A stretch of 64,000 nucleotides of DNA. Source: Maylandia zebra (taxonomy: Eukaryota > Chordata > Actinopteri > Cichliformes > Cichlidae). The stretch lies in contig NC_135185.1 of the NCBI RefSeq assembly GCF_041146795.1, positions 9,078,529-9,142,528 on the forward strand, read 5' to 3'. Positions 3,705-62,871 of the stretch are shown here, piece by piece. Numbering within the stretch: position 1 is the first letter of the stretch; each line of letters starts with the position of its first letter. The translations under genes and the position numbers were made by a program. Below the pieces are notes generated by a model. It searched no databases, was not told where the DNA came from, and saw only the letters and a list, made by a program, of their open reading frames with translations.

Positions 3705-6700
3705 CTGGTGAGGAGCTGAGCTGCTGCAGCGACTTCAGTCCACCCCGCAGAGCTGCAAACAACACGCCCACCCGGCAGCGTCACTCTGCACATGAACAGC
3801 TGATCAGCTGACTCACCTTCAGCGTCAGCGCTCAGCTCCTCCAGACGGGCGCCCAGTCGAGCCTCCAGCTCCAACATGTCAGGCGTCAGAGACGAGGCGT
3901 TGGAGGCCGGAAACTCTGCAAAGTGTCGACATGCAACATTAAACGCTCAGGTGGGCGGGGACAAAATGAAATTTTAGTCGGAAAACAATAGCGCCCCCGG
4001 TGGTGATGGTTTAAACATTCAGCGTCAATTATAAAAATCACCTTTAAAAATCTCAGACGGGAGCTTTTTATTAATTTTTTTAAATTTATGTTTGATTAGT
4101 TTTCTTATTTATACAACATGTACAACAAATTCAATTTAATCACCGTGAGGGGGAAAGCAAAACCAAAGCGAACAACAACAGAAGAGACAAACGGACCAAA
4201 ACAAGACCAAACAAAACACAAGAACAAACAAACAAACCAAGAAATACAATGACATTATACAAAATCGGACCTCCCATTTTGTACATATTTCAACCATTTC
4301 AACCAATATTCTTCAAATGAGTCCGCCTGGCACTTTAGCCTAAAAGTTAGTCTTTCTATAACAAAAATATTATATATCACATCAATCCATCCATCTATGG
4401 TAGGAATATCCTCTTTAATCCAAAGGCGAGTTATGGCCTTTTTGCAAGCTACCGACAGCACACTGAACAAATACTTATCCGGTTTGCATAGATTAAGACT
4501 CTCTAGGTTGCAATGCAAAATGAAATTGTATTTTCTTTTGGAAGATTGTTTCCATGACCTTGTCCTTATGTATTTCCTTCCAAAATGGAACCACACGGGG
4601 ACCTTCCCAAAAAATGTGGAAATGATTTGATGTTGCATGTCCACAATGCCTCCAGCATGTTGTATTCTGAGATTTTTGGGCTGGGGTAATAAAATAACGA
4701 AATACATTCTTCCAGCTGAATTCCCTCCACGAGGGGGAGCTTGTTACTGACCACTGCTCCTGTTAGGAATAGATTGCTCTCCGTTTCCCATCTTCCTTTA
4801 ACATATCTTGTATCATGACCCCATAGATTGATCAGTGAACAATATAATTTGGAAATAATTTTTTGATAGGGTGCATCTCTATATGCATTCTCGAATATAT
4901 TTATAATCTCTTCATTCCCAGTCGATAACTGAGAATTTTTTAGCTTTTTATTCAGGAAGTCCCTCAGTTGCAAATATCTAAATAAAGATCTTGATTTTGC
5001 AACCCGAATTTTTTCTTAAGGTCTTGGAAACTCATCACTTTTCCATTTTTCAACAAGGTACTGTATGTGGTGAGACCTTTATTTGCCCATGTTTTGAATG
5101 TCGAGTCGATCTTGCTAGGCAAAAATTCTGGGTCATATGCAAACCATTTAAGGAATCCGGCCCTCTGGTTTAATTGGTACTTTTTAAGTACTCTTTCCCA
5201 TATTTTTATTGAACTTACTATCCAAGGGTTGCCCGGGTCTCCCAGGAGTCGTAACTCTGAAGGATCTCCTATCAGTGCCCCGACAGGAAAATTACCTCCC
5301 AAGGACAATTCCACTTCCTTCCATCTTGAACAGTATCCAGGTTTACACCAGCCCACCAGATTTCTTATTTGTGTTGCCCTGTAGTAGTCCTGTAGGCAAG
5401 GGAAGCCTAATCCTCCTTTATCTTTGGGAAGCTGAAGTGTTTTGAACTTAACTCTTGGCTTTTTACCCTGATTTTATCTGTTTTGATTTTATATACTGTT
5501 TTGTTTGTTTGTTAATTAGTTAAGCTTAAATTTCAAAACTTACATTAACTATCTACTGTTCTGATTTTATCTATTTTGATTTTACATACTGTTTTGTTTG
5601 TTTGCTTGTTTGTTAAGTGGGTTAGAGCTCTGGGTAGCTCCCCAGCTGGGTCTAGAGAGTATTTTAAATTCAGGGAATTTAAAATAGAAAGTAGCTCGTC
5701 CACAGAAGGACTGGTAGCTCCCCTTACGATAAGGGTTCAGATCGCGCGAACAGGTGTGAAATGTGTGTGTTTAGTTAGTTAGTTTGTTTGCTTGTTTTAA
5801 TCAATTTTAAATCATACTTTTTATTTGTTTTTGTTTCTAATGTCTCTGTAAAGCACTTTGAATCACCTTGTTGTTGAATTGTGCTATACAAATAAATTTG
5901 CCTTGCCTTGCCCATATAAATCTTGAGAGGGTCCTATCCCACTCTACAAAGTATCTATCAGGGTTTTCTATAGAAACAGACTGGAATAAGTTTAATATCT
6001 TTGGGAGCATATTCATTTTTATGATGTCCACTCTAGAAGAGATGCTTAGATAAGGGATTAATGACCATCTGCTAATATCTAGCATGATATCTTTTTTAAG
6101 TAGGGAGTAGTTGATTTCTTCCAAACTGGTTATATCCATTGATAAATTTATGCCCAGATATTTGATAGTTCTTTTGTCCCAGCTTAGTTTGTATTTGTTG
6201 AGCAGGATGGGGGGGGGGGGGGGGGGGGCTATAAAAGCTACTAAGAACTTGTGTTTTTTGTATATTCAATTTATATCCCAAGTATAGCCCATACTCCTTT
6301 AACACTGACATGAGCTCCATAAGTGATTCGGTAGGTTTTGATAAGTAAACCAAAATATCATCTGCAAACAAGGCCAATTTCTGCTCACTTCCAGCGATAT
6401 TAATCCCTTTTACGTTACCATTCTGCCTAATCCTTTGAGCCAATGGCTCTATAAAAATAGCAAATAAGAGTGGACTCAGTGGGCATCCCTGTCTTGTGGA
6501 CCTTTCAAGCTTAAAAGCATCTGAAAGTTCACCATTAATCTTTATTTTTGCAGCTGGGCTATTATACAAGGCCCTCAATATAGTGATGATGGACCCATTA
6601 AACCCAAATCTAAGCATTGCTTGGAATAAAAATTCCCATCTCAAGGAGTCGAAAGCTTTTTCAGCAACTAGACTCAATAATATAGCTGGTATTTTATTTA

Positions 6701-9700
6701 AATTAATATGTCTAATAATTTGCAGAGTTCTCTTAACACTATCATGGGTTTGGCGCGACCTAACAAATCCAGTTTGATCTAGGTTTATTATCCTTGGGAT
6801 GATCCCTTCAAGTCTCCGTGCTATGATTGACGTAAACAATTTGTAATCTACATTTAATACACTTATTGGCCTGTAGTTGGAGCATTCTAGTTTGTCTTTA
6901 TCAGAGCTTTATCGGGAGCTTTTTAAAGGTGATTTTTTAAGCCGACCCTCGAGTCAGCAGGACAGGAAGCGAATCTGACCTGAGATCTGCTGCCTCAGCT
7001 CCTCCATCAGACTCTCGGTGTTACACAGTCTGGCCGCCAACACTGAAAACGAGCAAACACACACAGGAAGTTTACACACAACTGCTTGACAAAATAAAAT
7101 GGTGGAGACTTTTAGTCTGAAATTTTTCTGAGGAAGTACAACTGAATGTCAGTGTGAGCAGCGCCCCCCAGTGGCCACACAGCGTCACCAGTCAGTAGAA
7201 ACACAACTTCCTGTTTTTCATCATAAGTCTGGCTCACAGCCACAGACTGTATATAAAAGATGTACACCCTTTATGTCCATCTTTAAATACCGTCAGTGGG
7301 ACTTCCTGCTTCAAAGAAAAGTTGGTTAATCTATGAAATTAGAACTAAGTCACCAAACAGTGAGTGCTTGATGATGATGATGACCTGCGTTCTTCCTCCT
7401 CAGCTGCTCCACGGTGCTCTCGCTCGCCCTCAGTCTCGTCTGCAGGAACGGCAGCTCCGCCGCCAGAGCTGCAGACACAGCAGTAACCCAGTGTAAGGTC
7501 CACAAACCTGCGAGCCGCTGCTCAGGTGACGACGAGGGTCCGAGACTCACCCGAATTCTTCTTCTTCAGGTCGTCCGTCGAGCGCTCGCTGCTGTTCAGC
7601 CTGGACTGAAGTGTCGACACGTCGGCGGCTCGAGCTGAGGGACGACACAGGACATCAGAACCACCTCGGACTTAGAGGCCGAAGAATCTGATCCAGGACC
7701 GAACCCAGGCCAGGTTCGGTCCTGGATCCATATATGTTAAAAAATCAAAAACGATTTTCAATTTTTTTGTAGTTTATTGCACTTTTTTGCAATTTATGTA
7801 ATTACTATGCACTTAATGAATACATATTATTAAAATCTGGGCTATAATGGTTGTATTGATGTATAGCAACTTGAAATGCTCCCAAAAATGGCTCCACAGC
7901 ATGTAAAAATATAATATAAGCTCTGGCGGACTTGGTTCTATGGTAGTTCTTAAAGGGTTAAATGCTTACATATACACACACACAGTTACTGTCCCTCCTA
8001 GGGATGGGTATCGTTTAGGTTTTATCCGATACCGGTGCCAAACTGGTACTTTTGAAACTGTGCCGGTGCTCAAACGGTGCTCAAAGAATGGAGGACACAA
8101 AATTGGTCCAAAAACCTCTCATGTTCAGCTGTTTTTTGTAAAAAGATAACAATGTTAGCCTTTTCTGCAGCTGTGGGGCATATATGGCATCACTCTTGGC
8201 TGGAAGCAGTGCTTAAACAATGGAAAAAACACACAAACTTTGTCCAAAATCCTCTCATGTTTAACTGTTTTCCACTTTTTCTTTGGTCATTTTAGCCTTT
8301 TTGGCCAGGGTGAAGGGAGTATCTGCCATCAAACAAGAAGACAGCTGCATGTAGCTATGATGATGTTTGCTAGTTCACCTTACATGCATTAATTTAATAA
8401 TAATGGATTGGATTTACATAGCGCTTTTCAAGGCACCCAAAGCGCTTTACAATGCCACTATTCATTCACTCTCGCATTCACACACTGGTGGAGGCAGCTA
8501 CGGTTGTAGCCACAGCTGCCCTGGGGCAGACTGACAGAAGCGAGGCTGCCATATCACGCCATCGGTCCCTCTGGCCAACACCAGTAGGCGGTAGGGTAAA
8601 GTGTCTTGCCCAAGGACACAACGACCAGGACAGAGAGCCCGGGGATCGAACCGGCGACCTTCCAGTTACAGATACGCTTCCCAACCCCCTGAGCCACGGT
8701 CGCCCCAACAACGTGGTTAGCCTACGCAACATAAATTACACACGAACAACATTAAGCTACTCCCGCAGAGAAGAACGGCTGCTGCTGCCATCGTCATCCT
8801 CATCATTTCTGCTACACTGACAGGGCTAGGGGCCAGGACTCTCCTCTTCTGGTTTTTGGGGGATGTTGCTAGCTCCGGGTCCGTTAACAGGCAACCCAAC
8901 CGCAGTAGATGTGCTCGGTGTGAGGTCTCGCAGCAAGCTATCAAATACGGCGCATTTTTCGGCTTTTAAAAAAAAACGCTATGCGTCGCCAGGTGTTTCA
9001 TCGGATTCAAGGTGTTACCTCCTTTGCACAGTATCACCTTAAAGCACTTGTTGCTGCTGAGTTTGCATCTTTTGCTGTGAAGTACAGCCAGACTTTTGAC
9101 CGCTTCGCCTTGGGCATTTTTAATCTGTAGCTCTGCTCTAAAAGAACGTACGTACCTGGACCCGCCTACTATCCTCGGAAACGTAAAATGATTGTGTCAC
9201 AGCTCAGGAAAATAAAGCACCGAAATGTGCGCTGCTTTTCGGTCTGGTTACTACCGTTTATGTCAGAACCGGTGCCGTCATGGCACCGGATACCGGTACC
9301 CATCCCTAGTCCCTCCACACATACAACTCGGTTCTGCTTGTCACTACCCGATCCGTACCGGAAACCTGATCGGTACCCCGCATGCGCGAAAGGTGTCTAC
9401 TTCCAGTCGAAGCATTTTACGATAGTTACGGGTCAGAGTATCTGTTAAGATGTTAAGAATAACAAGTATCTCTTAAAATGTTTCCGATAATGAAACATTT
9501 AATATAATGTAGACAAAAACAAATAAAAAGATAGCGACAGATCAGAACTCCCGATCCGTACCGCGCATGTGCAGGGGTTTTCTTCTTCTTCTGTTCGTTT
9601 AATGGCAGTGTACTCCCCAGTGTACGAGGATACTGCCCCCTGCTGACCGAGTGAATGAACCCTATTGTAAACTGAATTGGCGTCATTACAAACGTGTGTT

Positions 9701-18300: not shown

Positions 18301-21300
18301 TCAGTCCACAGCCGTTTGTGACATCACCTGTACCTGTGAGCAGCAGGTTTTACCTCTGCTGCAGCTGCTCCTTCTCCCCCTTCAGCTTCTTCAGCCGCTC
18401 AAGCTTCTCAGTGTACCTGCAGACAAACAGCAGATGAGTTCACCTGCAGTAGATAAAGCCTCACACCTGAGAGGATTTTACAGTTTCAGAACCAGAAGCT
18501 TGTGGGGATAGGTTAATTGATAAATCCAAATTGCCACTAGGTGTGAATGTGCAAGTGAATGTGAGTGCGAATGGTTGTATGTCCCTGTGTGTTGGCCCTG
18601 CGACAGACTGGCGACCTGTCCAGGGTGTACCCCGCCTCTCGCCCTATGACAGCTGGGATAGGCTCCAGCGCCCCCCACGACCCTGAAAAGGATAAGCGGA
18701 AGCGAATGGATGAATGGATGGAGAACCAGAAGCCAGCAGAACCAGACAGTCTGATTAAACCCAGCACACCTCTGCAACAGCTGCAGTAACAAAGAGAAGG
18801 GGGGCCTGAGGTCATCTCACTGACTCCAGCCTGGGAAACGTCTAACCGGAGCATATGACCTCACTCCAGGGCTCGCAAAATCGCTAGCCCGACGTCCCGG
18901 GGCTAGCGATTTTTCCAGTCGGGCTACCAAAATCTCTCTCTGCCCTGCCCGTCGGGCTATCATAGGAAGGAAAAATATATGTCAATGCTTTTGCATTCTT
19001 TCGGAAATGTAGCTGGGTAATTATGTCATTGGCATCGGTGAGCCACTGTCAATATGTGACATATTGAAGTCGCGTTTGAATTTGCGCTTGTTTTTTGCTT
19101 TCACTTTGCAATCGAGCGAACTGTGTATAGAGAGCGACAGCACTGATTGGTGAGTGGTGATAATTTCGCACCAATTCCTCTGACATCGTCTTATCAATCG
19201 TTAGCTTACTATGCAAACATGACAAGTGAAATCTCACGCAGCAAGCTTAAACATGTGAGAGGTTGATCGCGCAGAGAATCGCTGAGCGTTATGTGAGTGC
19301 GTGTGTAAAAGCAGCAGATATACACTGAACAAAAATATAAACGCAACACTTTTGTTTTTGCTCCCATTCCCCATGGGATGGACGTAGAGACCTAAAATTC
19401 ATTCCAGATACACAATATAACCATCCCTCCCAAACAGTGGTCACAAATCAGTCCAAATGTGTGGTAGTGGACACATCTGCTATATTGAGATAATCCATCC
19501 CACCTCACAGGTGTGCCACATCAGGATGCTGATCTGACATCATGAGTAGTGCACAGGTGTACCTCAGACTGCCCACAACAAAAGGCCACCCTGGAATGTG
19601 CAGTTTTTTGCGCTATTGGGGGTCTGGGGACCCAGAACCGGTCAGTATCTGGTGTGACCACCATTTGCCTCATGCAGTGCAACACATCGTCGCATGGAGT
19701 CTATCAGATTGTCAATTGTGGCCTGTGGAATGTTGGTCCACTCCTCTTCAATGGCTGTGCGAGGTTGTTGGATATTCGTGGGAACTGGTACACGCTGTCG
19801 TATACGCCGGTCAAGCACATCCCGAACATGCTCAATGGGTGACATGTCCGGTGAGTATGCTGGCCATGCAAGAACTGGGACATTCTCAGTTGCCATCTGC
19901 CCTGAACAATGTGAACCATGATTCATCCGTGAAGCGCACACCTCTCCAACGTGCCAGACGCCATCGAATGTGAGCATTTGCCCACACAAGTCTGTTACGG
20001 CGACGAGCTGGAGTCAGGTCAAGACCCCAATGAGGACGACGGGCATGCAGTTGAGCGTCCCTGAGACGGTTTCTGACAGTTTGTGCAGAAATTGTTTGGT
20101 TGTGCAAACCAATTGTTCCAGCAGCTGTCTGGGTGGCTGGTCTCAGACGATCTTGGAGGTGAACCTGCTTGATGTGGAGGTCCTGGGCTGGTGTGGTTAC
20201 ACGAGGTCTGCGGTTGTGAGGCCGGTTGGATGTGCTGCCATATTCTCTGAAACGCCTGTGGAGACGGCTTATGGTTGAGAAATGAACATTCAATGCACGG
20301 GCGACAGATCTGGTTGACATTCCTGCTGTCAGCATGGCAATTGCACGCTCCCTCATTGCTTGTGGCATCTGTGGCATTTTGCTGTGAGACAAAACTGCAC
20401 ATTCCAGGGTGGCCTTTTGTTGTGGGCAGTCTGAGGTACACCTGTGCACTACTCATGATGTCAGATCAGCATCCTGATGTGGCACACCTGTGAGGTGGGG
20501 TGGATTATCTCAATATAGCAGATGTGCCCACTACCACACATTTGGACTGATTTGTGACCACTGTTTGGGAGGGATGGTTATATTGTGTATCTGGAATGAA
20601 TTTTAGGTCTCTACGTCCATCCCATGGGGAATGGGAGCAGTAACAAAGGTGTTGCGTTTATATTTTTGTTCAGTGTATATTTTAGTTCTGCTGAGCCAAA
20701 TAAGACAGGTCAAGGTGAAGAAGTAACAGCCAAAGAAAAGCTTACCACAAAACGGAAAAGTTATGACAAATCAGACTATAAGGCAAAAAGAAAGTGCAGC
20801 TTTATGGTTTCATGGACAAAATAATTTCTGTGGCTGCAACATGACGAGCTAAATAACCAGAGCTGCACATAAGTGGTCCGCAGGTGCGCATTCAGAATCA
20901 GAATACTTTATTGATCCCTGGGGGAAATTTTTTGTTACAGTGCTCCGTTATAAACAAACATTAACAAGACAGACAATACGCTAACTAAGAATAGTACAAT
21001 ATATACATATATACACGCACACATAAAGTCACTTATTAATAAATAGCTGAGAAAGAAACATGTGTAGCTATAGCAGTAAACAGTGTGTTGGGTGGAGGAG
21101 TTGTACAGGGAGCCACAGGCAGGAATGATTTCCTGTGTCGTTCAGTGGTGCATTATGGGTAATCTCAGTCTCTCACTGAGCGTGCTCCTGTGACTGACCA
21201 GCATGTCATGGAGAGGGTGGGAGGTGTTATCCAACATTGTCTTTATCTTGGACAGCATCCGCCTCTCCGACACACCTTGAGGGAGTCCAGCTCCATCCCC

Positions 21301-34545: not shown

Positions 34546-35825
34546 TGAATAGAATAGAATTCAACTTTATTGTCATTGTACATGCACGGGTACAGGGCAA
34601 CGAAATGCAGTTTGCATCCATCCAGAAGTGCTTTAGTGATATAGATATATTACAATATATATTAGCAATAATATAGATATGTAAGTATATTACAGAAATG
34701 GGTCTATTATGGTATGTTATAATGTACACGGTATGAAGTATGTTGTGAATATTCTATAACTATAAGTATGTACAGGCTATGAACAGGATATAAATATGAA
34801 AAACTATACAGAATATGAAATAAATAACTTTGCAGAAATCTGAGATATACAGTTATACAGAAATGGGAACTATGCAAGTCGTAAACAGTTGTAGGGTTAA
34901 AAATTATCGTATGTACAGAAAGATTATTTACACAGCTATACAGTAGTGCAGTTAAGATAAGTGAGGGTGTGGATAATTTCTACAGAGGCTATATAAAGTG
35001 CTAGTGGTTGTGAGTGGTGGTTCAGTCCATGTTATTATTGTGTGTTTGAGGGTACAGTTGTCCATTGTGGGTGTGTGTATGTTCAGTCCATGTGTTAACG
35101 TGGGTCAGATGTCAGGAGGCAGAGTTCAGGAGTCTGACAGCTGTGGGGAAGAAGCTGTTCCGGTACCTGGTGGTCTTAGTCCGGAGGCTCCTGTAGCGCC
35201 TCCCAGAGGGCAGGAGGGTGAAGAGTCCATGTGATGGGTGACTGGGGTCTTTGATGATTTTCCCAGCCCTTTTCAGACACCGCTTCCTGTAGATGTCTTT
35301 TATGGCAGGAAGTGGTGCTCCGGCGATGCGCTGGGCAGTTATCACGACCCTCTGCAACGCCTTCCGGTCCGAGGCAGAGCAGTTCCCGTACCAGACTGTT
35401 ATACAGTTGGTCAGGATGCTCTCGATGGTGCAGCAATAGAAGTTCACCAGGATGTCTGAGGACAGGTGGTTCTTCCTCAAAGTCCTCAAGAAGAAGAGGC
35501 GCTGGTGAGCCTTCTTGACCAGCTTGGAGCAGTTGGTCGTCCAGATGAGATCCTCGGAGATGTGGACTCCCAGGAACTTGAAGCTGCTCACACGCTCCAC
35601 AGCGGTCCCCTTAATGTGGATGGGTGGATGTGGGTCAGCATTTCTCCTGTAGTCCACGATGAGCTCCTTGGTCTTCTCGGTGTTAAGCAGCAGGTTGTTT
35701 GTGTCGCACCACTCAGCCAGACGATCCACCTCCTCCCTGTAGGCGGCCTCATCGTTGTCACTGATGAGGCCAATCACCGTGGTGTCATCTGCAAACTTAA
35801 TGATGGTGTTGGTTGCTAAACCTTC
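34546..35825 (-). mobile_element. Rex1-type LINE, 5'-truncated
   Basis: The minus frame (35112-35849) encodes the reverse transcriptase end, IIKFADDTTVIGLISDNDE, then AEWCDTNNLLLNTEKTKELI, and the C-terminal ALQRVVITAQRIAGAPLPAI. It ends with LLPSGRRYRSLRTKTTRYRN. A 3' UTR extends to 34546, where the plus strand reads AATTCAACTTTATTGTCATT. The frame is long and open, so it is fairly young. It is inserted antisense in the L2. Confidence 0.85.
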
Positions 35826-36509
35826 TATCAGGAGCCTTGGTGTTACCATTGACTCAGCTCTGACTTTGGACGCTCATGTAAAATCTCTGGTTCGCTCCTG
35901 TATTTATCACTTGAGAAACATTGCTAAGCTGAGTCATATTGTATCGTGCTCCGAATTGGAAGTTGTCATTCATGCATTTGTTTCATCTCGTCCGGATTAT
36001 TCTAATTCTTTGTTTACTTGTTTATGTAAAGCCTCTTTGGAGCGTCTGCAAGTCGTTCAGAACGCTGCTGCAAAGCTTCTGACCAAGTCCTCCAAGTCCT
36101 CCCATGTCACACCCCTGCTGATCCAGCTGCACTGGCTCCCCGTTAAATTCAGAATCCACTTTAAGGTTTTGACCTTGACTTTCAGGGCTCTGCATGGACA
36201 AGCACCAACATATATAAGTGAACTTTTACATCCATACATTCCCAGCAGGTCCCTGAGGTCATGTGACTAGGGCTTGCTGGCTGAAAACACACAAGGCTGA
36301 AAACAAAAGGCGACTTTTGTGACTGTGGCCCCCAGACTGTGGAACTGTCTCCCTTTGAGCCTGAGATCTGTGGACTCAGTGGTCGCTTTTAAAAAACAGC
36401 TAAAAACTCATCTTTTTAAACTTGCTTTTGGTTGATTTTTATGTTTTAGCTTCTGTGAAGCACTTTGTGATTTTTATCTTGAAAGGTGCTATATAAATAA
36501 AATTGTACA

Positions 36510-42523: not shown

Positions 42524-44425
42524 TCAGTCGTCATGGTTACTCCTGCGGTAGATGGGCACATTAATGCTGTGGAACGCCGGGACCCAGCGGTTGTCATGGA
42601 GACCCACATTGCAGCCAGGCGTGTCCCTGCGGGCGCCATGGCAGCACATCCAGTACCCTGGGCCATACGGCAACGCCTGGCAGTACGGCTTGTGGTGCCA
42701 GCGGCACAGCGACACATCGCCGCGCCCGTAACGCTTCTTGCACTGCTTGCAGGTATCATCACGGTAACGGGGGTCTGACACCCACAGCGAGTCAGCGGGC
42801 CGCACGCCGTAGTTCTCGATGATGAACTTGAAGTAACTGCAGGCGCACTTGAGCGCGGCAAGGCTCTGCGTCGGCAGCAGTAGGAAGATCTTGACGAGCA
42901 GGTGGTGCGGCAGCGCTGTCAGGTACGGCTGCGGCTCCAGCAGCTGCTGCAGCCGCTGACGCTTCTCAAGGAAGTCCTGCGACGCCGACGCACGCCACAC
43001 CAGAGGCGCCGAGGCAGGGTTGCTAACTACGCCAGCATCCTCAGTTCCGCTCCTCCTAGTCTTCTCTGATTGGCTGTCAGTACTGCAGGGGGAGGGCTTA
43101 AAAGGTTGAAGCACATAGGTGGCTCTGTGGCATGGGGGGTGGTGTGCCGAGTGTGTGGGGGAGGGGGTGGAGTCTTCGCATTTCTCAGGTGTTGGAGACA
43201 AAAACAATAAGCCAGGCACAGGCTCCTCCTCCTCAGAGGGCGGGGCCTTAAGGTGAGTCTCTGTTACAGTGCGCTCCCTCTCCACACCTGCAGCCTCCTC
43301 CGACTTGACCAGCTCACCTGAAAGGGGCGTGGTCAAAGCTGAGGCCGGAAGACAGCCGACTGGTTCCCTGCTCAGACACTGAGCTGCAGGTGATGATGGT
43401 GACGCAGGCTGGCTGGGGGTGGAGCTGTGACCTGTGGCAGCGGCGAGCAGCACACGCCCCGCTGTCCTCCGCAGGCTGTTGCTACGTGACAGGTTGCCCT
43501 CTGCCCGCCGCCTAAGACATTTAGACTCTAGTCTCGCCACCATATCTGACACTCTGATGCTTTCTGGCTCCTCCCCCCTGTGCTCCGAGCCGTCCCTGAG
43601 CTTGGTGGGCGGGGCTCTGGAGAGCATGATAGTGGTGCAGCTCCTCTGGAGAGCGAGCAAAGGTTTGGAGTCCAGCTGCTGCTCACTTACTCTCTGCTCC
43701 AGAAACGCCACCATGTCCACCACTGACACTTTCAGATCCGCCTCCTCTGCTGTCCCCAGTTCGCCACCACACTGCTGACCGGAGTTCGGGCGCTGCGGAG
43801 CAGGTCTGAGGTCACAAGCACTCTGGTCTTGCTGAAGGTTTTGGGTGTTTCCGGACCGGCGGCGCCGTTTGGCGGTACAGTTTTCATCCCAGCTGCCCTT
43901 TGCCTTCACGGCTCGTGACAGCCCCGTCCCAACGCTGTAGTTGGTGCATGGTGCCGGCGCCCTGTCCCTGCTGTTCGCAGCACACTCGCCACCTCCGGCA
44001 CTATCTTCTCGTCCCCTCTCTGAAACAAAGATGGCGATCTTCTCACGGACGTGTCCGGGTTTGATGACGGTCCAGACATCCAGCGGCGTGTCGGCATCCT
44101 CAGCGGCAGTCTGGAACAGTTTGGGCGTGTTGTTCTCGCAGCCTGGCGGCAGCAGTGGGATGTGCTGCAGGGTGGTGCCGGACTGCGTCTTGAGGCAGAG
44201 CGACGTCATGCTGCTTGTGATGGCGTTTGCTGGGCATCGCAGCGTGTTGGCGGAGATTACACTGAATGGGAAGCGGCTGCTGCTGCCATGGTTACCAGTG
44301 TACGTCCTGAGCAGCCCCCCCTGCTGGCTCACAAACAGACTGCTCCGCTGCGTCCCCGTCTGAACGCCGGACGCATCGAGACGCAGCTCTGAACGCACGA
44401 GCTTCGGGTAAGACTTCAGGTGCAT
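42524..44425 (-). CDS. fbxo34: F-box only protein 34
   Basis: Single coding exon of 633 aa (human about 711), with start MHLKSYPKL as in human MHLKPYWKL. A splice acceptor (CCCACAG) lies just upstream, about 44439-44445, so the 5' UTR is spliced. FBXO34 is a substrate-recruiting F-box protein expected to act in an SCF ubiquitin ligase with SKP1; its substrates are little known. The N-terminal two thirds are low-complexity and Ser/Pro-rich with conserved islands (PLDVWTVIKPGHVREKIAIF, VVDMVAFLEQR, RVSDMVARLESKCL). The F-box is at about residues 500-540 (LTALPHHLLVKIFLLLPTQ). The Cys-rich C-terminus (DTCKQCKKRY, SLCRWHHKPYCQALPYGPGY, WMCC) is the hallmark shared with FBXO46. The upstream in-frame MGFNHVTS start lies in the intron and was rejected. 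Confidence 0.96.
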   Translation of the reverse strand: MHLKSYPKLVRSELRLDASGVQTGTQRSSLFVSQQGGLLRTYTGNHGSSSRFPFSVISANTLRCPANAITSSMTSLCLKTQSGTTLQHIPLLPPGCENNTPKLFQTAAEDADTPLDVWTVIKPGHVREKIAIFVSERGREDSAGGGECAANSRDRAPAPCTNYSVGTGLSRAVKAKGSWDENCTAKRRRRSGNTQNLQQDQSACDLRPAPQRPNSGQQCGGELGTAEEADLKVSVVDMVAFLEQRVSEQQLDSKPLLALQRSCTTIMLSRAPPTKLRDGSEHRGEEPESIRVSDMVARLESKCLRRRAEGNLSRSNSLRRTAGRVLLAAATGHSSTPSQPASPSSPAAQCLSREPVGCLPASALTTPLSGELVKSEEAAGVERERTVTETHLKAPPSEEEEPVPGLLFLSPTPEKCEDSTPSPTHSAHHPPCHRATYVLQPFKPSPCSTDSQSEKTRRSGTEDAGVVSNPASAPLVWRASASQDFLEKRQRLQQLLEPQPYLTALPHHLLVKIFLLLPTQSLAALKCACSYFKFIIENYGVRPADSLWVSDPRYRDDTCKQCKKRYGRGDVSLCRWHHKPYCQALPYGPGYWMCCHGARRDTPGCNVGLHDNRWVPAFHSINVPIYRRSNHDD

Positions 44426-44445
44426 GAAGGTCCTGTGGGGAGACA

Positions 44446-46041
44446 GAGAGGTCACATGATTAAAACCCAACCGAGATATTGACTTATCAAAATAAAAGAC
44501 CCCAGGAAATTATCGACATGTTTGGCATTCAGATTTTCAAAATAAAAGTCAGATAGAGGTGTTTCCTGTGGGTGCGTCTCAGATCAGAGCAGGTCAGACT
44601 CTCTCCGAGGTGATTCTGAGATATTTCATCACCCGATCGTGGTGTAAACATTTCAACACGAGATCACGTCAGAGCTGATCTGAGGTCAGGCTTCCTCTCC
44701 TCCTCATGAAGAACGCCTTATTAGTCCGAGGGAGGGCCACACTGGTTTTACTGGAACACTTTACCTCTGCTCGTAAAACTGGGATGTGGAGGAGGCCCAT
44801 GGACTTCCTGTTACTCAGGTGAAGGCGGCACCTTTTTGCCTCAGTAATGAACAAACTCATGTGTGTTTATGGTCAGCGCCCTGACAGACTGCAGCTCCTC
44901 TCGCGTCCACCGGGGGCTGCTGTAACTCTCCTCCTTCAAGCGAATAAGAAAAGCTTGTTGCTTATGTTTGGTGGTGGGGGACAGCTGATATGAAAGGGGG
45001 GGGGGGGGGGGGGGGGGGGGAGTCAGTTGCAGAGACCAAAAACACACATGTTCAGCTCCCTTTGATGTGCACACTGCCTCACTGTGGGCGTCACAGGAAC
45101 TGCAGGTTTAAACCGGATAATTTGGATTTGTTTGTTCTTCGTTCTTCACTTGCCCTCCTCATGTTTCTTGACCACATGTACCGAGCATGTGCAGAAACGC
45201 ATGTTTTTAACGTTTTGGGTGGTGGATGCCATCATGACGAAGGCTCGGTGAAGCAGCATTACCTCAGCGCTCGGCTGGGCCCGAGCCCGCAGACACGCCC
45301 GCACAGATGTGGAGGAAACCACGACAGCTTCATGCTCTCGGCTATCAGTCGCATGGACTCGCATGTGTGTGACGTGTTCAGGACACTGATTATGTTAATG
45401 ATCGGTTATTGATTGGAGAGGACAAAACGATCTGTGCGCTCAGACACAGACAGAGTGAGAAACTTTGACTCTAATTTTGTCTGAATGTGTTTAATGAGTC
45501 ATTTTACTTCACAGGGACTTTTTTTTTTTAACCTCCTAGGACCTGCGTCCACATATGTGGACATCACATTTTGGGTTATTTAGACTAAAATACTCAATTT
45601 TGCTCTACAAGGGCCTGATATCCACTTACAAGGACATTATACTGCCACTGTTCTATCAACATTTTAAACGAATATCCTCATATGTGCCTCTGATTTTTCT
45701 TAGAAACAAAAATCAGGTTAAAAAAAAACAAAAAACAAACAAACCTTGTAATTCTTTGTTTTTACATTTATCGGGTCCCAATGAGCCCAAATATCAAAAA
45801 GAAATTAAAAATTAATTAATTAAATTTTAAAGTTAATTTAATGAGGATTTTTTTCTTTTTCAGTGATTTTATTCTGTTCATTTCATTTTTTGTGTTTATT
45901 GAACATTCGGGATAAATAAAGTCAATCTCACCCGGCGCTGATCATTACTTGTTTTCAGTGAAGCCATGTCACCTGGCCAACAGTCACATGACCGGCAGAG
46001 TTCCCTGTCACGCCTGCGTCTCAGCCGTTCAGGGTGAGACA
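44446..46041. other. fbxo34 intron, proximal part
   Basis: It contains a long G-run (about 44996-45020) and A/T-rich sequence with AATAAA-like motifs. I see no exon and no clear transposon. Confidence 0.45.
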
Positions 46042-54879: not shown

Positions 54880-55086
54880 CCCTGCTGGACATTAGAGGAA
54901 CTGCAGGCTGAACGTTTCTGTCAGGTGATAAATAAAACTGGGTATCATCCGCACAGCAATGAAAAATATGCAGTGTTTTCTAAAAGTGTTGTTCCCAGAA
55001 CATAACCCCGTGGAGCTTCGTGAATAGCTGTTATGTGTAAAAAAACATTCCTTGTTTACGTGAACAAACTTAAGCAAGAGGAGGAA
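54880..55086 (-). mobile_element. L2 LINE fragment, left of the LTR element
   Basis: On the minus strand a reverse transcriptase box (ADDTQFYLSPD-like) reads near 54900-54960. A matching upstream L2 piece lies right of the LTR element at about 59640-59760 (SVTRDRLMASDSRDVSAAFN). Together they suggest that the LTR element landed in an old L2 copy. Confidence 0.55.
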
Positions 55087-55640
55087 TGTTATGACCCAGG
55101 GTCATTATTTGCGGTACGGTGTTGTTATTGTTTGTATTTGTATTCAGTGTTGCTTGTTTCCAGGTGGAGGCCACCCATTGGTGGAGGAAGGAAAGAGGCC
55201 AGCTACAAAAGGGGTTGGACTGGGTCGGCGAGCAGACTTCCTGGTTTCCCGTGAGCTGTGTGTCTGGGGACCGTCGTGGTGTGTGACTGCACGGGGCTGC
55301 AATATTAATGCTGAAAAAGGGGTTGTACCTGGGCTTGGTAGCTGTAGGGGTGGAAAGCCGTTTTCTTTTATTCTCCTCTTTTCTCCTGTTTCGGGTAGGG
55401 AGACAGGTTAGAGAATTGTATTTTGTTTTGGGATCGTGGGAGGTAAGTTAGCTCTGTTTTTCTTTCTAGTGTGTTTTGTTTGTTGTTTTGGCATCGCCCA
55501 CCCTGAAGCTCGCTACCTGTTCAGTAAATAAATTAACCAACTCTCGTCATTCTGCCGTGGTGTGATTTTTTTTGTCGTTATTATGTATCGGGTTTATCTT
55601 TTTGTTGTGTTGCACCCCGGCTTCGGGCCGGTGTGTAACA
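55087..55640 (+). repeat. 5' LTR
   Basis: This is the 554-bp direct repeat partner of 58974-59527. It contains a TATA-like TACAAAAGG near 55203 and AATAAA near 55526, plausible promoter and polyadenylation elements of the family. Confidence 0.95.
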
Positions 55641-55756
55641 TAAATGGGGGCTCGTCCGTTTGAGGGATTTCGGGGTCGTTTGTGTGTAGTGGGGTTCGTG
55701 TGGGTGTGTGGGGGTTTTTTTGTGTTTTTGGGGGTTGTTTGTGTGGGTGGCCGCGG

Positions 55757-56857
55757 ATGGAGTTTGATGTGGATAAGTTTGCCGAGGCGCCTTCCTTGCA
55801 GCAGTTGAGTCGGTGTCGGAGGGAGGATTTGCTGCTTATTGCGGGCCGTTTTGATGTGCGAGCGCCGGCGGGGGTGAAAAAGGATGATTTGCAACAGCTT
55901 GTCACGGTGGCTTTGAGCGAGCGGGGTTTGCTGTCGAGCGTGCCGCTTGTTGGTGGGACGGGCGGGGCGGCTATGGAGCCGTTGGCTCCGTTGTCTGTTC
56001 CTCCTGTGGCCGCCCCCTCTGTGGCTCCTCCTGCTCCGGTGGTGGGGTCGTCGGCGGAGGAGCTCCAGTTGTTGCTCCGCATTAAGGAGGTGGAGTTGAG
56101 TAGTCACCGGTTGGAGGTAGAAGCGATGCATTTGAGGGTGAGGGCGTTGGAGTTGGAGCGCGGACCTCCACCGCGTGCCCCTGACTCTACGCCGCCCACG
56201 CCTGCGCCCTCTGTGCTCCCTGCGCCGCCGGTGCCTGGTCCCGCCCCGGCTCTCCGTCAGGATTTTGATGTTGGGAGGCACATTAAATTGGTGCCGCCCT
56301 TTTGTGAATCAGAGGTGGAGTCGTTTTTTCCTGCTTTTGAGCGTGTGGCTGCCGCGTTAAAGTGGCCGGAGGAGGTCTGGGTTTTGCTGTTGCAGTGTCG
56401 GCTGGTGGGTAGGGCTCAGGAGGTGTGGGCTAGCCTGTCAGCATCTGAGAGCTTAGATTATGGTGTGGTTAAGGCTGCCGTATTGCGTGCTTTTGAGTTG
56501 GTGCCTGAAGCGTACCGTCAGAGGTTTCGGCAGTGTGTGAGGGGGGGGGATCAGACTTATGTGGAGTTTGCGCGCGAGAAGGGTTTGCTCTTTGATCGGT
56601 GGTGCCAGGCTAGTGAGGTTAAGGAGTTTGCACAGTTGAAGGAGTTGATGTTATTGGAGGATTTCAAGGGGTGTCTGCCGGAGCGGGTGGTTGTTTATTT
56701 GAACGAGCAGAAGGTCGTTTCCCTCGCGAAAGCGGCGGTTCTGGCAGATGAGTTTGCTTTGACGCACAAGAGGGGTTTTTCCCCTCCATTACGTCGGGGT
56801 TCTAGAGTTTTGCCGGAGGTGGGGGGGGGGGCGTTCTCCCCCGCTCTCGCGGCGTAG
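55757..56857 (+). mobile_element. gag-like region of the LTR element (fossil)
   Basis: The translation begins MEFDVDKFAEAPSLQQLSRC and has a Pro-rich linker. A capsid-like helical part follows (KLVPPFCESEVESFFPAFER, WVLLLQCRLVGRAQEVWASL), resembling gag of fish Gypsy-type elements. It is read as a fossil part of the element at 55087-59527. Confidence 0.8.
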
Positions 56858-56864
56858 CCCTACG

Positions 56865-57596
56865 GTGGCTGCTGGGGACCGCCGATGTTTTTTTTGTCAT
56901 GAGCTCGGTCATCTCGTTGCTTCTTGTCCCGTGCTGAGGGCGAGGGAGGGGGCGCGGGCCGACATTTCGGGGGGGGCCGTGCAGTGTTGCTCCGCGGTAA
57001 CCCGCCCTAGCTTAATGCCGGTTGGCGTCGTTCCGCGGGGGATAGATGAGGTGTTTCGACCGTTTGTTTCGACGGGGTTTTTATCGTTGTCTGGTGATGC
57101 GGGGGACCGGGTTCCGATCACCATCTTGAGGGATACAGGGGCGAAGCATTCGGTGGCGCGGCATGGAGTCGTGCCTTTCTCTCAGCAGTCGTACTGTGGT
57201 TCTGATTTGCTGGTGTGGGGTATCAAGGTGAGTCTTTTACGCATGCCTCTCCATACGGTTACTTTGACCTCGTCCTTCGTATCGGGCGCTGTGCGGGTGG
57301 GGGTTCGAGATCAGCTGCCAATTGAAGGCATTGATCTTGTTTTGGGAAATGACTTGGCCGGGGGAAAAGTGTTTCCGGCTATGCCGGAAGTTATTGAGTG
57401 TCCTACTTCGGATCGGTTATGCCAATTCCCGTCGGAGCTGGGTGACCCCACAGTTTATCCGGCATGTGTGGTTACTCGTGCTCAAGCTCGTCGCTTGGGT
57501 GGTGAGGTGGACATATCCGAAATGTTTCCGGACGGCTCTGAGCCGCATGATAGTTCTGTTCCGGGGGTAGATGGTGGGACGGCGAAGGTTTTTAGT
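56865..57596 (+). mobile_element. Zinc-knuckle and protease-like part of the LTR element (fossil)
   Basis: A CCHC knuckle (CFFCHELGHLVASC) lies at about 56886-56927 and an aspartic-protease-like ILRDTGAKHSVAR at about 57126-57164. The same frame continues without interruption into the hirip3 sequence at 57597. Confidence 0.8.
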
Positions 57597-58865
57597 ATGG
57601 TGTCGGAGAAGGAGGCAGCAGGTATCCGCAGGTTTGTGTGTGGTCAACTCCGTGACGAGGCAGACCTGAGCACGCTGACCTTGGGAATTTTAAAAAAGAG
57701 ATATCAGACACACAACAAATGTGACTCATTAAGGCCAGAAGTAAAAACTTTCATGAAACAGGTGGTGCAAGAGGAACTGATGAAAATGCAGGATAATGAT
57801 GAAAGTGACTCAGAGACTAAGAAGCTCCAGAACAAAAGGAAAAGAGAAAATGGAAATGACGAGGTCATGAGTGAGAGTGAAGATGAATCCTGGGCAAAGA
57901 AATCACAAAATAATCATTCAAGCTCATCATCAGAATCTGAGTTTCAAGAGGACAACAAAACAGAAAGTAAGGAAAGCAGCAATGATGAAGAAAATGCCAA
58001 ATCTCAAGCTGATGGTGAAGAGCCAGAGGTGAAAAAATCACAACAAAAGAGAAATGAAAATCGTCAAATTGACAGTGACGAGTCTTCTGATGAGGAACTC
58101 AGTGAGGAAAGCAACTGCAGTGACAGTCCAAAGAAAATGGTGAGAATGAACGTTGAGACAGTAACCAGCAGTAAAGATGAAGGAAGGAGAACACCACTGA
58201 GTGATGCAGGAAACGAATCAGATGGAGACTGCAAGTCAGAAACGAGTGACAAAATTAGGAGCGACGAGTCTTCTGACAGTGAAAAAGAAGATACAAAAGT
58301 GGAAGAGAAAACCAGTGACCCAGACTCAGTTTCATCACTACCTTCTTTGGAAGATGAAAAAGAAAATAAGACTGATAAAACAAATGATAAAAAGATGAAG
58401 AAGAGTGTGAAGAAAGATGAGAGCACCAGAAAACCAAAGTCTGATGACAAATCGGTGGCGAGGCTTGAACGTTATATTGCCCTCTGCGGCGTGAGGAGAA
58501 ATTACAAGAAGCTGCTGGAGGACTGCCGCTCCCAGGTGGCTGTTCTGAAGAAGGAGCTTGAAGAGCTTGGTGTACATGGTCAGCCAACTATTCAGAAATG
58601 GAAAAAGGTCAGAATGAAGAGAGAGCAAGCTCAAGAACTGGCTGCTCTTGATGTCAACAACATCATTACCACACAAGGTCGACCTACACGCAGGGGTGCC
58701 TCAGCAAGTCAGAAACAACAGGACTGTCCGTCCTCTGAATATCAGCGCACTCTAAACTCGGAATCAGACAGTGATCAGGAAAACAATACCCACAGAGGTC
58801 GCAGGAAAATGTCCGAATGGGCCAACCTGCAGAGGATCATCAGTGATGACACAGACAGTGACTGA
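57597..58865 (+). CDS. hirip3: Captured retrocopy of HIRIP3 (HIRA-interacting protein 3)
   Basis: This is a 422-codon intronless coding sequence with its own start (MVSEKEAAGIRRFVCGQLRD). The N-terminal domain (DLSTLTLGILKKRYQTHNKC, FMKQVVQEELMKMQ) matches human HIRIP3. The middle is a long acidic, Ser/Glu/Lys-rich disordered tract with many SDESS/SSDEE casein-kinase-2-like sites. The conserved C-terminus (about 287-422) has ARLERYIALCGVRRNYKKLL and the CHZ motif (ALDVNNIITTQGRPTRR), ending NLQRIISDDTDSD. HIRIP3 is an H2A-H2B histone chaperone that binds HIRA. The absence of introns and a sharp shift from G-rich to A-rich sequence at the junction show that it came from a processed transcript. 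It is continuous in frame with the protease-like segment, so the product could be a fusion or could start internally. Whether it is expressed is unknown. The parent hirip3 gene is not in this window. Confidence 0.93.
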   Translation: MVSEKEAAGIRRFVCGQLRDEADLSTLTLGILKKRYQTHNKCDSLRPEVKTFMKQVVQEELMKMQDNDESDSETKKLQNKRKRENGNDEVMSESEDESWAKKSQNNHSSSSSESEFQEDNKTESKESSNDEENAKSQADGEEPEVKKSQQKRNENRQIDSDESSDEELSEESNCSDSPKKMVRMNVETVTSSKDEGRRTPLSDAGNESDGDCKSETSDKIRSDESSDSEKEDTKVEEKTSDPDSVSSLPSLEDEKENKTDKTNDKKMKKSVKKDESTRKPKSDDKSVARLERYIALCGVRRNYKKLLEDCRSQVAVLKKELEELGVHGQPTIQKWKKVRMKREQAQELAALDVNNIITTQGRPTRRGASASQKQQDCPSSEYQRTLNSESDSDQENNTHRGRRKMSEWANLQRIISDDTDSD

Positions 58866-58973
58866 TGAGTCTGGTTTCCCCCTAGGAAGTGTTCGATTTG
58901 TTTGTTTGTTTTAATGTTTTTGATACTAGGTCTAGCATCTCTCTAATGAGATGCTTGATTTTAGGTGGGGGGG

Positions 58974-59527
58974 TGTTATGACCCAGGGTCATTATTTGCG
59001 GTACGGTGTTGTTATTGTTTGTATTTGTATTCAGTGTTGCTTGTTTCCAGGTGGAGGCCACCCATTGGTGGAGGAAGGAAAGAGGCCAGCTACAAAAGGG
59101 GTTGGACTGGGTCGGCGAGCAGACTTCCTGGTTTCCCGTGAGCTGTGTGTCTGGGGACCGTCGTGGTGTGTGACTGCACGGGGCTGCAATATTAATGCTG
59201 AAAAAGGGGTTGTACCTGGGCTTGGTAGCTGTAGGGGTGGGAAGCCGTTTTCTTTTATTCTCCTCTTTTCTCCTGTTTCGGGTAGGGAGACAGGTTAGAG
59301 AATTGTATTTTGTTTTGGGATCGTGGGAGGTAAGTTAGCTCTGTTTTTCTTTCTAGTGTGTTTTGTTTGTTGTTTTGGCATCGCCCACCCTGAAGCTCGC
59401 TACCTGTTCAGTAAATAAATTAACCAACTCTCGTCATTCTGCCGTGGTGTGATTTTTTTTGTCGTTATTATGTATCGGGTTTATCTTTTTGTTGTGTTGC
59501 ACCCCGGCTTTGGGCCGGTGTGTAACA
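58974..59527 (+). repeat. 3' LTR
   Basis: It has the same length as the 5' LTR and is nearly identical to it. It is followed by the target duplication AGGAA (59528-59532). Confidence 0.95.
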
Positions 59528-59532
59528 AGGAA

Positions 59533-59894: not shown

Positions 59895-60015
59895 TTTATT
59901 CATTAGACACCTGAACAGAAACATGTGGAAGAATCAAAGCATCTGCTGATGATCACCTTCAAACATTCACTGATAATTTCCTCCTGACTGATCTCTGCTG
60001 GGTCAGCAGCCTGTC
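59895..60015 (-). other. lgals3 3' UTR with polyadenylation signal
   Basis: A minus-strand AATAAA at 59895-59900 lies about 115 bp after the stop codon. Confidence 0.7.
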
Positions 60016-62871
60016 TCAGGGCAACATCTCCAAGTTGACCCTGGACAGCGTGAGGTCGTAGTAGATGTTGAGTCTCTTGATGTCTCTCAGGTTGGTGATA
60101 CGATGCTTGAAGTCCAGCATGTGAGAGTTGTTGACAGCTACCTTTAACTCCGTGTTGGTGCACAGGATCTTGATCTGGAAGAGAAACATGAGAGACTGTT
60201 GTTGGTGTCATCTCCGCCTCACAGAAATCAAACTGAGGATTTTTTTTTAAGCTGTCTGACCTCAAAATTCTGCCCCGGCACAAACGGGAAGTGCTGCAGC
60301 TCCCTCTCCTCTTTGCCCCACTTTTCACCGATGCAGCTGTTTCTGATAATCACCTTCTTGCCGCCCTCGTTGAAGCGAGGGTTGAAGTGGAAGGCGATGT
60401 CACGAGCTGTGGCCAGGTCCACCGTGATCCTGATGAATCACAGAGACCTCAGTGAATTACTGACTCTATTAGAGCTTCTCCTCCATCAGGATCTGATTAT
60501 CTGGATCAATCGTTTCTCTTTTTGGCCAATGTTAATGCGGCGTTAAGCGAAGCAAGTCTGATTTTGCTTCACTGAAACAAGCAAACGAATGCAAACAAAT
60601 GAAAGTGTAGCTGATGCCTGACCTCGCTCATCCTTGTTAAGGTGAACGAGACACCAGCTGTCCTCACATCTCTCGTTGTTTTTTAATCATGTGTTCACAG
60701 CAAACATGAAGGTTTTGTGTGATTATACCTAAAGTTTGTCCAATGAGGTGACATGAGTGCGTTACTACGGGTAACAGCTCACTGTCTTCTTCTACTGCCC
60801 TGCTTTCATTACTGTTACTCAGTAATGACTGGATTTAACCACTGTCAGTTTATCGCTCTGTGCTTCCTGTTTACTCTGCTCTACACCCGCCCGCTCGCTT
60901 CGTTAGTCTGACCTCTGCTCTCTCGTCACTATGTGACATCACAGCATTCGTACTGACTTGTCAGCATTGGGTTTGATAGTTCCAGCGATGGTGATCAGCA
61001 GCTTGTCGTACACTCCTTGAGGCAGAGGCATATTGAAGGGAACCGTCTGTCAAGAAGAAAACAGCTGTTTACTACATCTGTCCTTCTGCCTGTCCTCTGT
61101 TTCCGTCTCTGTTTGGCTCACCAGATTCTGCTGGGGTGCAACAGGAGGAGTGGGTCCAGGTCCGGGTGAAGGGCCTGGACCTGGACCCCAAGGTCCGCTG
61201 GGCTGGCTGGGGCCTTGGGGCCAGGTAGGGTTAGCAGGCTGACCTCCAGGCCAGGCTGGAGCAGTGGAACCTCCGGGCCAGGTGGGCTGGTTGGGCTGAC
61301 CTGAGGTTTCAGTGGAGGCAAAAGTCATTTCCACAAACATTCACCTGTTTATTTAACCTGCGAACATCCACCTGGGCACCACAGGCTAACGTCCACACAT
61401 AACCCCAGATGGAAGCTGCGAACGGCAATGGCAAAATAACTGTAGGAGACTGTTTGACAGGTGACACCCCACCCTAACCTTAGACAGGTAGAAGGTGACC
61501 TGGTGGATGTAAAGAGGCTGCTATTAATGAGGCCTCGTGAAGACTGAAGTCCCTTCAGAGACGTGACTGTCAGAGGTCAGTAAAAGTCTCATTTCTCTAC
61601 AGCGGAGGGTTGGGCTTGTGCTTGGGTTGATCAAGTCAAGTCAGGTGGCTTCATTGTCATTTCAACCATGTGCAGAGTGAAAGGTGTGAAACTCACCGTC
61701 AGATTTTCAAACCTCTTACCTGGCCACGCGGGTGCATTGGGCTGTCCGGGCCAGAGACCTCCTCCTGCTTGGTTGTTTCCACCACCGGGCCAGAGACCTC
61801 CTCCTGCTGCTGACTGGGTGGTGCCACCATCAAGAGCGTCTGAGAGCTGCAGACACCCAGAAGCAAAGAAACCCTGAGCTCGTTTTGTCCTCGGGACGGT
61901 TTCTGACTGAGCACAGTCCCTGAAACACGCAGGGCTAAGGTGCTTCCTTCATTGCCTCCTTTAGCAGAGGGGACATTGGAGCATCCTCTATGAGAGGAAA
62001 GGAGGTCATTCCATCCCATAATTCATAGCAGTGCACCGTCAGACAAGGACTGAGGTCACGAAAGTGTTATTAATGGGGTGTTTTTCATTTCATGCCGTTA
62101 TTGTTTCACCTGTTTCTGTGAGAGGGAAATCATTTCAGTTTCAAAAACTTTTAGTCTAAATGTCCACAGAGTCAGGATTTGTACTCTTCAGCCTTCTTCT
62201 TCATCACTTCTGCAGATTCTGAGCCAAATCCTGCCTCACAGGTCTTAGCCGACTGACCACAGATTCTGGATGGGATTAAGATCTGAGGAGTCTGTCTCTG
62301 CCAACAGTCTCCTCCCAGTGCTTTAAACAGTAAAGACCCGAAAACAGTAGGAAATAACTTCAACAACCACACTATGAGCAGGTGCTAGGTGATACCGGGA
62401 AGGAAGAACTGCATTTTAACAGGAAGAAGCCTGTGCTGGAAAATGCTGGACTTTGTCAAACTGCTCTGGGATCACTGGGAGAAGAAGTCGAGGATGAATT
62501 CCACCGAGGGCTGCAGAGGTTATGAACAGGAAGAGTCAACACTTCACAATAAAAGTTTGTAAAACATATGAAACAGTGACTACTCTTCAGTCCGCCACAG
62601 AGACAATGTGTCTGAAACACGAGCTGAGACGCTGCCAAAGCTTTGCTACGACCCCACGTCAGTGGTCCAGCTTCACCTCACCGCAGCAGCGCCCGCAACG
62701 CCAGAGGGACACGTTTAAGAGACGCTGTCTGACCTTCAGGCCAGAAGTGGCCGTCTGAAGTACCGAGTGCAACTGAACGCACCACGGTTCACACTGAGGG
62801 TGTGTTCAGTGACAGACTCTTCTGGAATGTTCTGTATGAACTGGCTCTAAAGAAGGAATAATAACGCCCTG

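Follow-up and report, generated by a model that had tools for sequence, protein, structure and literature searches.

How does the complete coding sequence of a nuclear histone chaperone come to lie, free of introns, between the long terminal repeats (LTRs) of a retrotransposon? This arrangement is found in a 64,000-nucleotide (nt) stretch of the genome of the cichlid Maylandia zebra (hereafter the window; C19:9078529-9142528 of genome G000, 962 Mb in 63 contigs), where a complete LTR element at window positions 55087-59527 carries the spliced coding sequence (CDS) of HIRIP3 instead of its own replication genes. The account that we favor, with a probability of about 0.9, is a non-autonomous Ty3/gypsy-type family that acquired host HIRIP3 by template-switch capture and then spread in trans, with HIRIP3 mostly a passenger.

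The captured gene, its junctions and its copies

The captured CDS (57597-58865, plus strand) runs from start to stop codon as an open frame of 422 codons with no introns, as defined by its open reading frame (ORF), its protein relatives and an alignment to the donor exons. Matching LTRs enclose it (552 of 554 positions identical, with AGGAA on both sides), and the uninterrupted, intronless frame described in the original prediction is confirmed. Its assignment to HIRIP3, on the strength of a conserved N terminus and a CHZ C terminus, also stands. A protein search gave 196 relatives at E ≤ 1e-3 (the best 120 of the 196 being listed), and the best 8 of the 196 carry the names HIRIP3, HIRIP3-like or histone chaperone domain-containing. 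The cargo is 93% identical to Haplochromis burtoni HIRIP3 over 100% of the query and 91% identical to H. burtoni HIRIP3-like over the full length. The CHZ motif gives a weak Pfam match (E 0.015, below cut-off). Among solved chains, the C-terminal region has one match, 6m2m (“Expressed protein,” E 9e-4), which we take to be plant Chz1. Judged by sequence, the cargo is HIRIP3, with an orthologous N terminus and a C-terminal CHZ region; HIRIP3 binds H2A/H2B via its CHZ region (PMC10854748).

The donor of this sequence is present in the same genome. A search of G000 with the HIRIP3 protein found 13 stretches, comprising 5 intronless full-length copies and 8 exon-sized matches on contig C4. The C4 locus is the parental hirip3 gene, with 8 coding exons, GT-AG borders and an intact 422-amino acid (aa) product. 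The captured copy follows the donor exons, and the donor introns are absent from all copies. The multi-exon parent that the original prediction proposed to look for is thus found, on a contig other than that of the window copy.

Both ends of the insert can be placed to the base. At the 5′ junction (57596|57597), element sequence runs to 57596, and hirip3 begins at 57597 with the A of its ATG. Here the element sequence TTAGTGTGGTGTCGGAG aligns with the mRNA sequence TTAGGATGGTGTCGGAG, with similarity at 15 of 17 positions, 11 of them consecutive. The element sequence is unbroken in all six relatives compared (TTTTTAGT-GTGGTGTCGGAGGA), with GTTAGG-ATGGTGTCGGAGAA at the corresponding place in the hirip3 gene; all five copies, that of the window included, combine the two as TTTTTAGT-ATGGTGTCGGAGAA. 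Both parents read V-S-E in the same frame at this point, so the fusion is in frame. The capture extends beyond the frame originally noted, to 58926, and includes 61 nt of the hirip3 3′ untranslated region (UTR; 58866-58926, plus strand), where the alignment to the parental locus ends; no 5′ UTR is included. At the 3′ junction (58926|58927), the 3′ UTR gives way to the element tail with about 1 nt of similarity. AT skew shifts from -0.22 to +0.35 across the protease/hirip3 junction. Between the two breakpoints, about 3.4 kb of element sequence, encoding integrase, reverse transcriptase and RNase H (IN-RT-RH), has been replaced.

The same chimeric 5′ and 3′ junctions recur in all four other genome copies. 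The search for further LTR copies with this junction, suggested by the original prediction, therefore yielded four additional loci, together with an H. burtoni protein record for the 5′ junction. Recurrence at four further loci puts the structure well past coincidence. In total, five complete LTR-gag-protease-hirip3-LTR elements lie on five large contigs, C19 (the window), C12, C9, C11 and C3, with target-site duplications, read from the flanks, of AGGAA, GCAG, TGTC, ATGC and TATGG (three of 4 bp and two of 5 bp). An assembly or gene-prediction artifact that fused hirip3 to a repeat is close to negligible as an explanation: the DNA-level view does come from one assembly, but the five loci have separate target-site duplications, and the H. 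burtoni protein provides the same junction independently. We rejected it on the junctions, the target-site duplications and the copy number.

Recombination of element RNA with processed hirip3 mRNA during reverse transcription, as first proposed from the window, is supported by both junctions, by the 8-exon donor and by the recurrent copies. Under this model, spliced hirip3 mRNA would have been co-packaged with element RNA. Reverse transcriptase, copying the minus strand from the 3′ end, would have switched from the element tail to the hirip3 3′ UTR with almost no homology (58926|58927), copied hirip3 as far as its start codon, and returned to the element RNA within the 17-nt similarity (57596|57597). 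The two switches would have replaced IN-RT-RH and fused HIRIP3 in frame to the protease. Alternatively, a processed hirip3 copy made by a long interspersed nuclear element (LINE) might have inserted into an existing element, the composite having moved later. That the hirip3 copy is intronless agrees with such an origin, but neither poly(A) nor a target-site duplication of its own is seen at the insert ends, the 5′ end falls exactly at the start codon within the 17-nt similarity, and about 3.4 kb of IN-RT-RH is replaced; we consider this exceedingly improbable. A later-inserted retrocopy was rejected on the junctions and on the target-site duplication that encloses the whole chimera at each of the five loci.

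Element anatomy and pol-bearing relatives

The window element lies on the plus strand and is bounded by an unstranded 5-base target-site duplication, AGGAA, at 55082-55086 and 59528-59532. Its LTRs (5′ LTR, 55087-55640, TGTTAT...GTAACA; 3′ LTR, 58974-59527, with AATAAA at 59414) are each 554 bp long, start with TG, end with CA, and show 2 differences. The 25 nt after the 5′ LTR are identical in all five copies and include a candidate primer-binding site (55645-55658), apparently complementary to what we take to be the 3′ end of tRNA-Pro. ARAGORN found no tRNA gene in the window or in L009. A gag frame with a SCAN domain (55757-56857; Pfam E 8.8e-14) follows, in a frame different from that of the zinc knuckle in this copy. 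A 700-codon stop-to-stop frame (56763-58862, with stops at 56760 and 58863) then encodes zinc knuckle, protease and HIRIP3 without interruption. The CCHC zinc knuckle (56883-56933) was read directly from its motif, with Pfam matches below cut-off (Lin-28A-like_zf-CCHC_2, E 2e-4; zf-CCHC, E 0.053). The retropepsin-like protease and spacer (57040-57596, start approximate) are the last coding sequence of element origin and end exactly at the junction; they were assigned by homology to SCAN-gag proteins of fish elements and contain a DTGAKHS motif at about 57132, and Pfam gave no protease match in the window element. Downstream of the captured sequence is the element's 3′ tail (58927-58973), with a polypurine tract at 58964-58973. 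The polypurine tract and the candidate primer-binding site are present in all five hirip3 copies.

In the three internal frames of the window element, Pfam matches are confined to SCAN, zinc-knuckle-type, and CHZ or Nup domains, with none to integrase, reverse transcriptase or RNase H. The element is non-autonomous, its IN-RT-RH region replaced by hirip3. The window element has no env, being filled by gag, protease, hirip3 and tail; the relatives were not searched for env.

The window LTR has at least 41 matches in the genome (40 of 158 candidates scored), and ten regions with related LTRs (L044-L053) were compared with the parts of the window element. Two of these, L045 and L048, combine LTRs, gag, protease and tail with roughly 2.8-3.4 kb of additional coding sequence. 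L044 is truncated past the protease, most of gag is missing from L046, L047 and L050 are missing still larger parts, and L051, L052 and L053 each show one LTR. An insert of about 1.9 kb interrupts an LTR of the same family in L049 (G000:C21:5752500-5756700). Upstream of the 3′ LTR, the 47-nt tail of L044, L045 and L046 agrees with that of the window element at all 47 positions, and that of L048 is 97.9% identical. Pfam places the pieces of L046 in the order integrase (H2C2 and rve), p58_C, then reverse transcriptase (RVT_1) and RNase H; in L045, p58_C lies upstream of RNase H. Integrase upstream of reverse transcriptase, the order met in L046 and lost in the window element, is presumably that of Gmr1-like elements. 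These comparisons suggest that the window family is of Ty3/gypsy type, with relatives of Gmr1-like domain order.

Relatives of this kind are the likely source of the missing activities: pol-bearing elements would have provided reverse transcriptase and integrase in trans as the chimera multiplied. In protein searches, gag found relatives of 59% identity at best among the best 120 of 314 listed (7996 candidates scored), and the zinc-knuckle-protease segment, besides the H. burtoni protein P0003, found at best 63% over 56% of the query. The protein records listed thus contain no near-identical pol-bearing relative. A search of viral contigs gave no match.

The spread appears recent. Between the paired LTRs of the five copies there are 2, 2, 2, 1 and 1 differing sites (two pairs also have one gap column each), corresponding to roughly 0.26-0.52 million years at a cichlid rate of 3.5e-9 per site per year. 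Three further LTRs, on C15, C5 and C2, show 99.5% identity, are flanked on both sides by GTGT, CTAC and ATAC, respectively, and are apparently solo LTRs. A tree was built from 30 of the 41 LTR matches, its bootstrap not having settled; in it, the ten LTRs of the five elements and the three solo LTRs form one clade (98/93), adjoining a clade that holds L044, L045, L046 and L048.

Timing of capture and constraint on the cargo

Public cichlid proteins help to place the capture in time. In the H. burtoni protein P0003 (591 aa; its cluster has 12 members), protease and HIRIP3 are joined at the same point as in the window copy. The end of P0005, a Maylandia zebra model, matches the window translation from 58875 (14 residues) and, by eye, continues across the 3′ junction; an artificial splice seems to carry this model beyond the stop codon of hirip3. 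The element-type residues are also found in P0001 and P0004, and the element-type proteins divide into two subfamilies, one with the window copy and P0005 and the other with P0001, P0003 and P0004. P0002 and P0006-P0008 were taken as native by their residues, the last three also by apparent intron read-through. Residues 184, 189, 198 and 205 are common to the element-type proteins (P0005 lacks 184 and 189) and set them apart from all four cichlid natives, which argues for one capture. Changes at 20, 193, 209 and 344 in haplochromine natives are absent from the copies, and an insert in the Neolamprologus and Oreochromis proteins is absent from both the copies and the haplochromine natives. This pattern makes the branch leading to the haplochromines the probable place of the capture, but allele sorting could produce it as well. 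A single capture in the cichlid lineage leading to haplochromines would therefore be the starting point of the family.

In place of the 30-nt stretch at window positions 58406-58436, P0005 has residues encoded by the reverse complement of that same stretch, as seen in the protein only; this may be an in-frame micro-inversion, of a kind that template switching can produce. In addition, four cichlid entries with the names HIRIP3-like or histone chaperone domain-containing (P0001, P0003, P0004 and P0005) seem to represent transposon cargo.

Several observations weigh against template-switch capture followed by spread of a passenger in trans. The tree, which covers 30 of the 41 LTR matches, places no pol-bearing element inside the hirip3 LTR clade, and the direct parent of the family is thus not seen. 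Mobilization in trans is a step that we infer, with no transcript or event seen, and the three solo LTRs may derive from hirip3-bearing or from pol-bearing members. The ratio of non-synonymous to synonymous change (dN/dS) between the parent and the five copies is 0.29-0.41 (NG86; dS 0.068-0.077). With a transition bias of 3-4 it rises to 0.41-0.63 in the three copies tested, with P 0.005-0.026 in two of them and 0.063-0.096 in the third. These low values reflect either a parental branch on which most of the synonymous change fell or partial constraint on the cargo within the element; synonymous changes could be assigned to a branch only with outgroup DNA, and a dN/dS below 1 may therefore stem from the constrained parent gene. 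The hirip3 frame is also open in four of the five copies, and gag-protease is disrupted in all five. Disabling lesions amount to 8 frame shifts and 2 stops in gag-protease and 1 stop in hirip3; a share of 1 in 11 for hirip3 has P 0.027 by length alone, with lesions at the same run not independent of each other.

Homopolymer runs number 7 in hirip3 and 18 in gag-protease (p 0.10). In the window copy and L010-L013, all eight gag-protease frame shifts lie at such runs, whose length varies between copies, as if by recurrent slippage. A single stop codon breaks the one frame that gag, protease and hirip3 share in copy L010. We rejected the open frame as proof of function, given the gag-protease frame shifts at homopolymer runs and the youth of the copies.

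Conserved residues provide a second measure of constraint. With site conservation taken from 112 outgroup proteins and mispredicted stretches of P0005-P0008 masked by hand, 8 of 38 element-type changes and 0 of 21 native cichlid changes fall at sites at least 95% conserved (Fisher p 0.041). The corresponding counts are 11 of 38 versus 0 of 21 at 90% conserved sites (p 0.005) and 21 of 38 versus 5 of 21 at 80% conserved sites (p 0.029); unmasked, the native-type P0008 has 3 apparent conserved-site changes within a mispredicted stretch. The near-invariant residues affected include K291E and C335W in the window subfamily (in all five genome copies), G413R in the window copy, and T28I and K54E in the other subfamily. 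The region upstream of the CHZ motif also shows altered conserved residues and a loss of 3 residues. The original prediction suggested a possible effect on host silencing or histone supply; these changes speak against strong selection for HIRIP3 function.

It is unlikely, then, that the cargo serves the element, with HIRIP3 in the polyprotein, or made from its own start, binding H2A-H2B and aiding access to chromatin while selection keeps the frame. Such a role would suit the open frame in four of five copies, the hirip3 indels in multiples of three, the pairwise dN/dS below 1, the frame continuous with protease in the window copy, the two subfamilies on record, and the H2A/H2B binding of the HIRIP3 CHZ region reported in PMC10854748. 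On the other side are the changes at near-invariant residues and the 3-residue loss upstream of the CHZ motif, and an open frame needs no selection in copies this young. Moreover, the five copies differ from one another by 12 non-synonymous changes (one a stop) and 6 synonymous changes, a ratio not different from neutral (P 0.12-0.33). A more specific proposal, that Gag-protease-HIRIP3, or released HIRIP3, binds H2A-H2B and either docks on or opens chromatin or shields copies from silencing, aiding the haplochromine spread, is quite unlikely.

Benefit to the host, by extra HIRIP3 supply or by a dominant variant, with the host keeping the frames open, we regard as very improbable. In its favor, public cichlid records give the element-type proteins the names HIRIP3-like or histone chaperone domain-containing, and an LTR could drive transcription. 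However, the five copies are young, nearly identical, placed at unrelated sites and disrupted in different ways, a pattern that looks like transposition and not retention, and the conserved-site changes again count against it. Considered together, these sequence comparisons make it most likely that HIRIP3 is a passenger of the captured family, mostly unconstrained or under relaxed constraint.

Surrounding sequence and known systems

Beside the element, the host sequence at window positions 59903-61340 (minus strand) resembles a gene that we presume to be of galectin-3 type; an ORF at 61050-61340 (minus strand) encodes proline-glycine-tryptophan-rich repeats and has no Pfam match. Farther away, a 648-aa frame at 42524-44470 (minus strand) contains an F-box (Pfam E 1.7e-5). 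Other mobile-element remnants lie at 6096-6839, 19886-20449 and 35112-35849, all on the minus strand, and comprise two reverse-transcriptase pieces (one below the Pfam cut-off) and one Tc1/mariner-like transposase N terminus.

The layout of the hirip3 element has several known counterparts. In the gag-onc fusions of acutely transforming retroviruses, gag is kept, pol is replaced by a host CDS, and a helper is needed. The hirip3 family shares the retained gag and replaced pol, but is an inherited retrotransposon with no env and no known growth-promoting cargo. The SCAN-type gag of the window element and the domain order of its relatives, with integrase ahead of reverse transcriptase, are shared with what we take to be Gmr1-like Ty3/gypsy elements, from which the window derivative differs by its loss of IN-RT-RH. 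Bs1 of maize is a plant element with copies of three genes, whereas here one complete gene is carried, in a fish. Like the window element, Bs1 is an LTR element with host coding sequence. The review PMC5408686 names it beside retrocopies made through LTR elements in zebrafish, chicken, mosquito and Drosophila, a subject that PMC8232201 also covers; template switching at microsimilarities is described for such retrocopies (PMC5408686).

As these two reviews present LTR-mediated retroposition in metazoans (Tan et al., 2016, Genome Res), a host mRNA is joined by template switching at microsimilarity, and the product is intronless and LTR-flanked, as here. The marks of LTR-mediated capture, namely a lack of introns, no poly(A) or own target-site duplication, and similarity at the junction, are all found in the hirip3 copies. 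In contrast to the retrocopies as the reviews describe them, the whole CDS is here in frame with the protease, and the chimera exists in five complete copies. Crocodilian endogenous retroviruses carry captured KIT-ligand and nectin3 mRNA, with purifying selection reported (PMC4299795). They too are multi-copy LTR elements with a host CDS, captured before species splits, but they are retroviruses whose cargo is a ligand or cell-adhesion protein that replaces env or nothing (PMC4299795), whereas the hirip3 element lacks env, integrase and reverse transcriptase and carries a nuclear histone chaperone. Searches of the open-licence PMC literature listed no paper that, by title and start of abstract, deals with HIRIP3 carried by an LTR element. 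Events of this kind are already known; the cargo, the element type and the copy number are unusual.

The locus provides a clean, datable vertebrate case in which a retrotransposon acquired a complete nuclear regulator and afterwards amplified in chimeric form. The donor gene, the pol-bearing relatives, both breakpoints and the daughter copies are present in one genome, so the template-switch model can be read directly. For annotation it is a warning, since several cichlid HIRIP3-like entries appear to be transposon cargo. For the cichlids themselves, it means that a mobile element bears an H2A-H2B chaperone in a seemingly young fish radiation, where insertion polymorphism and expression are testable.
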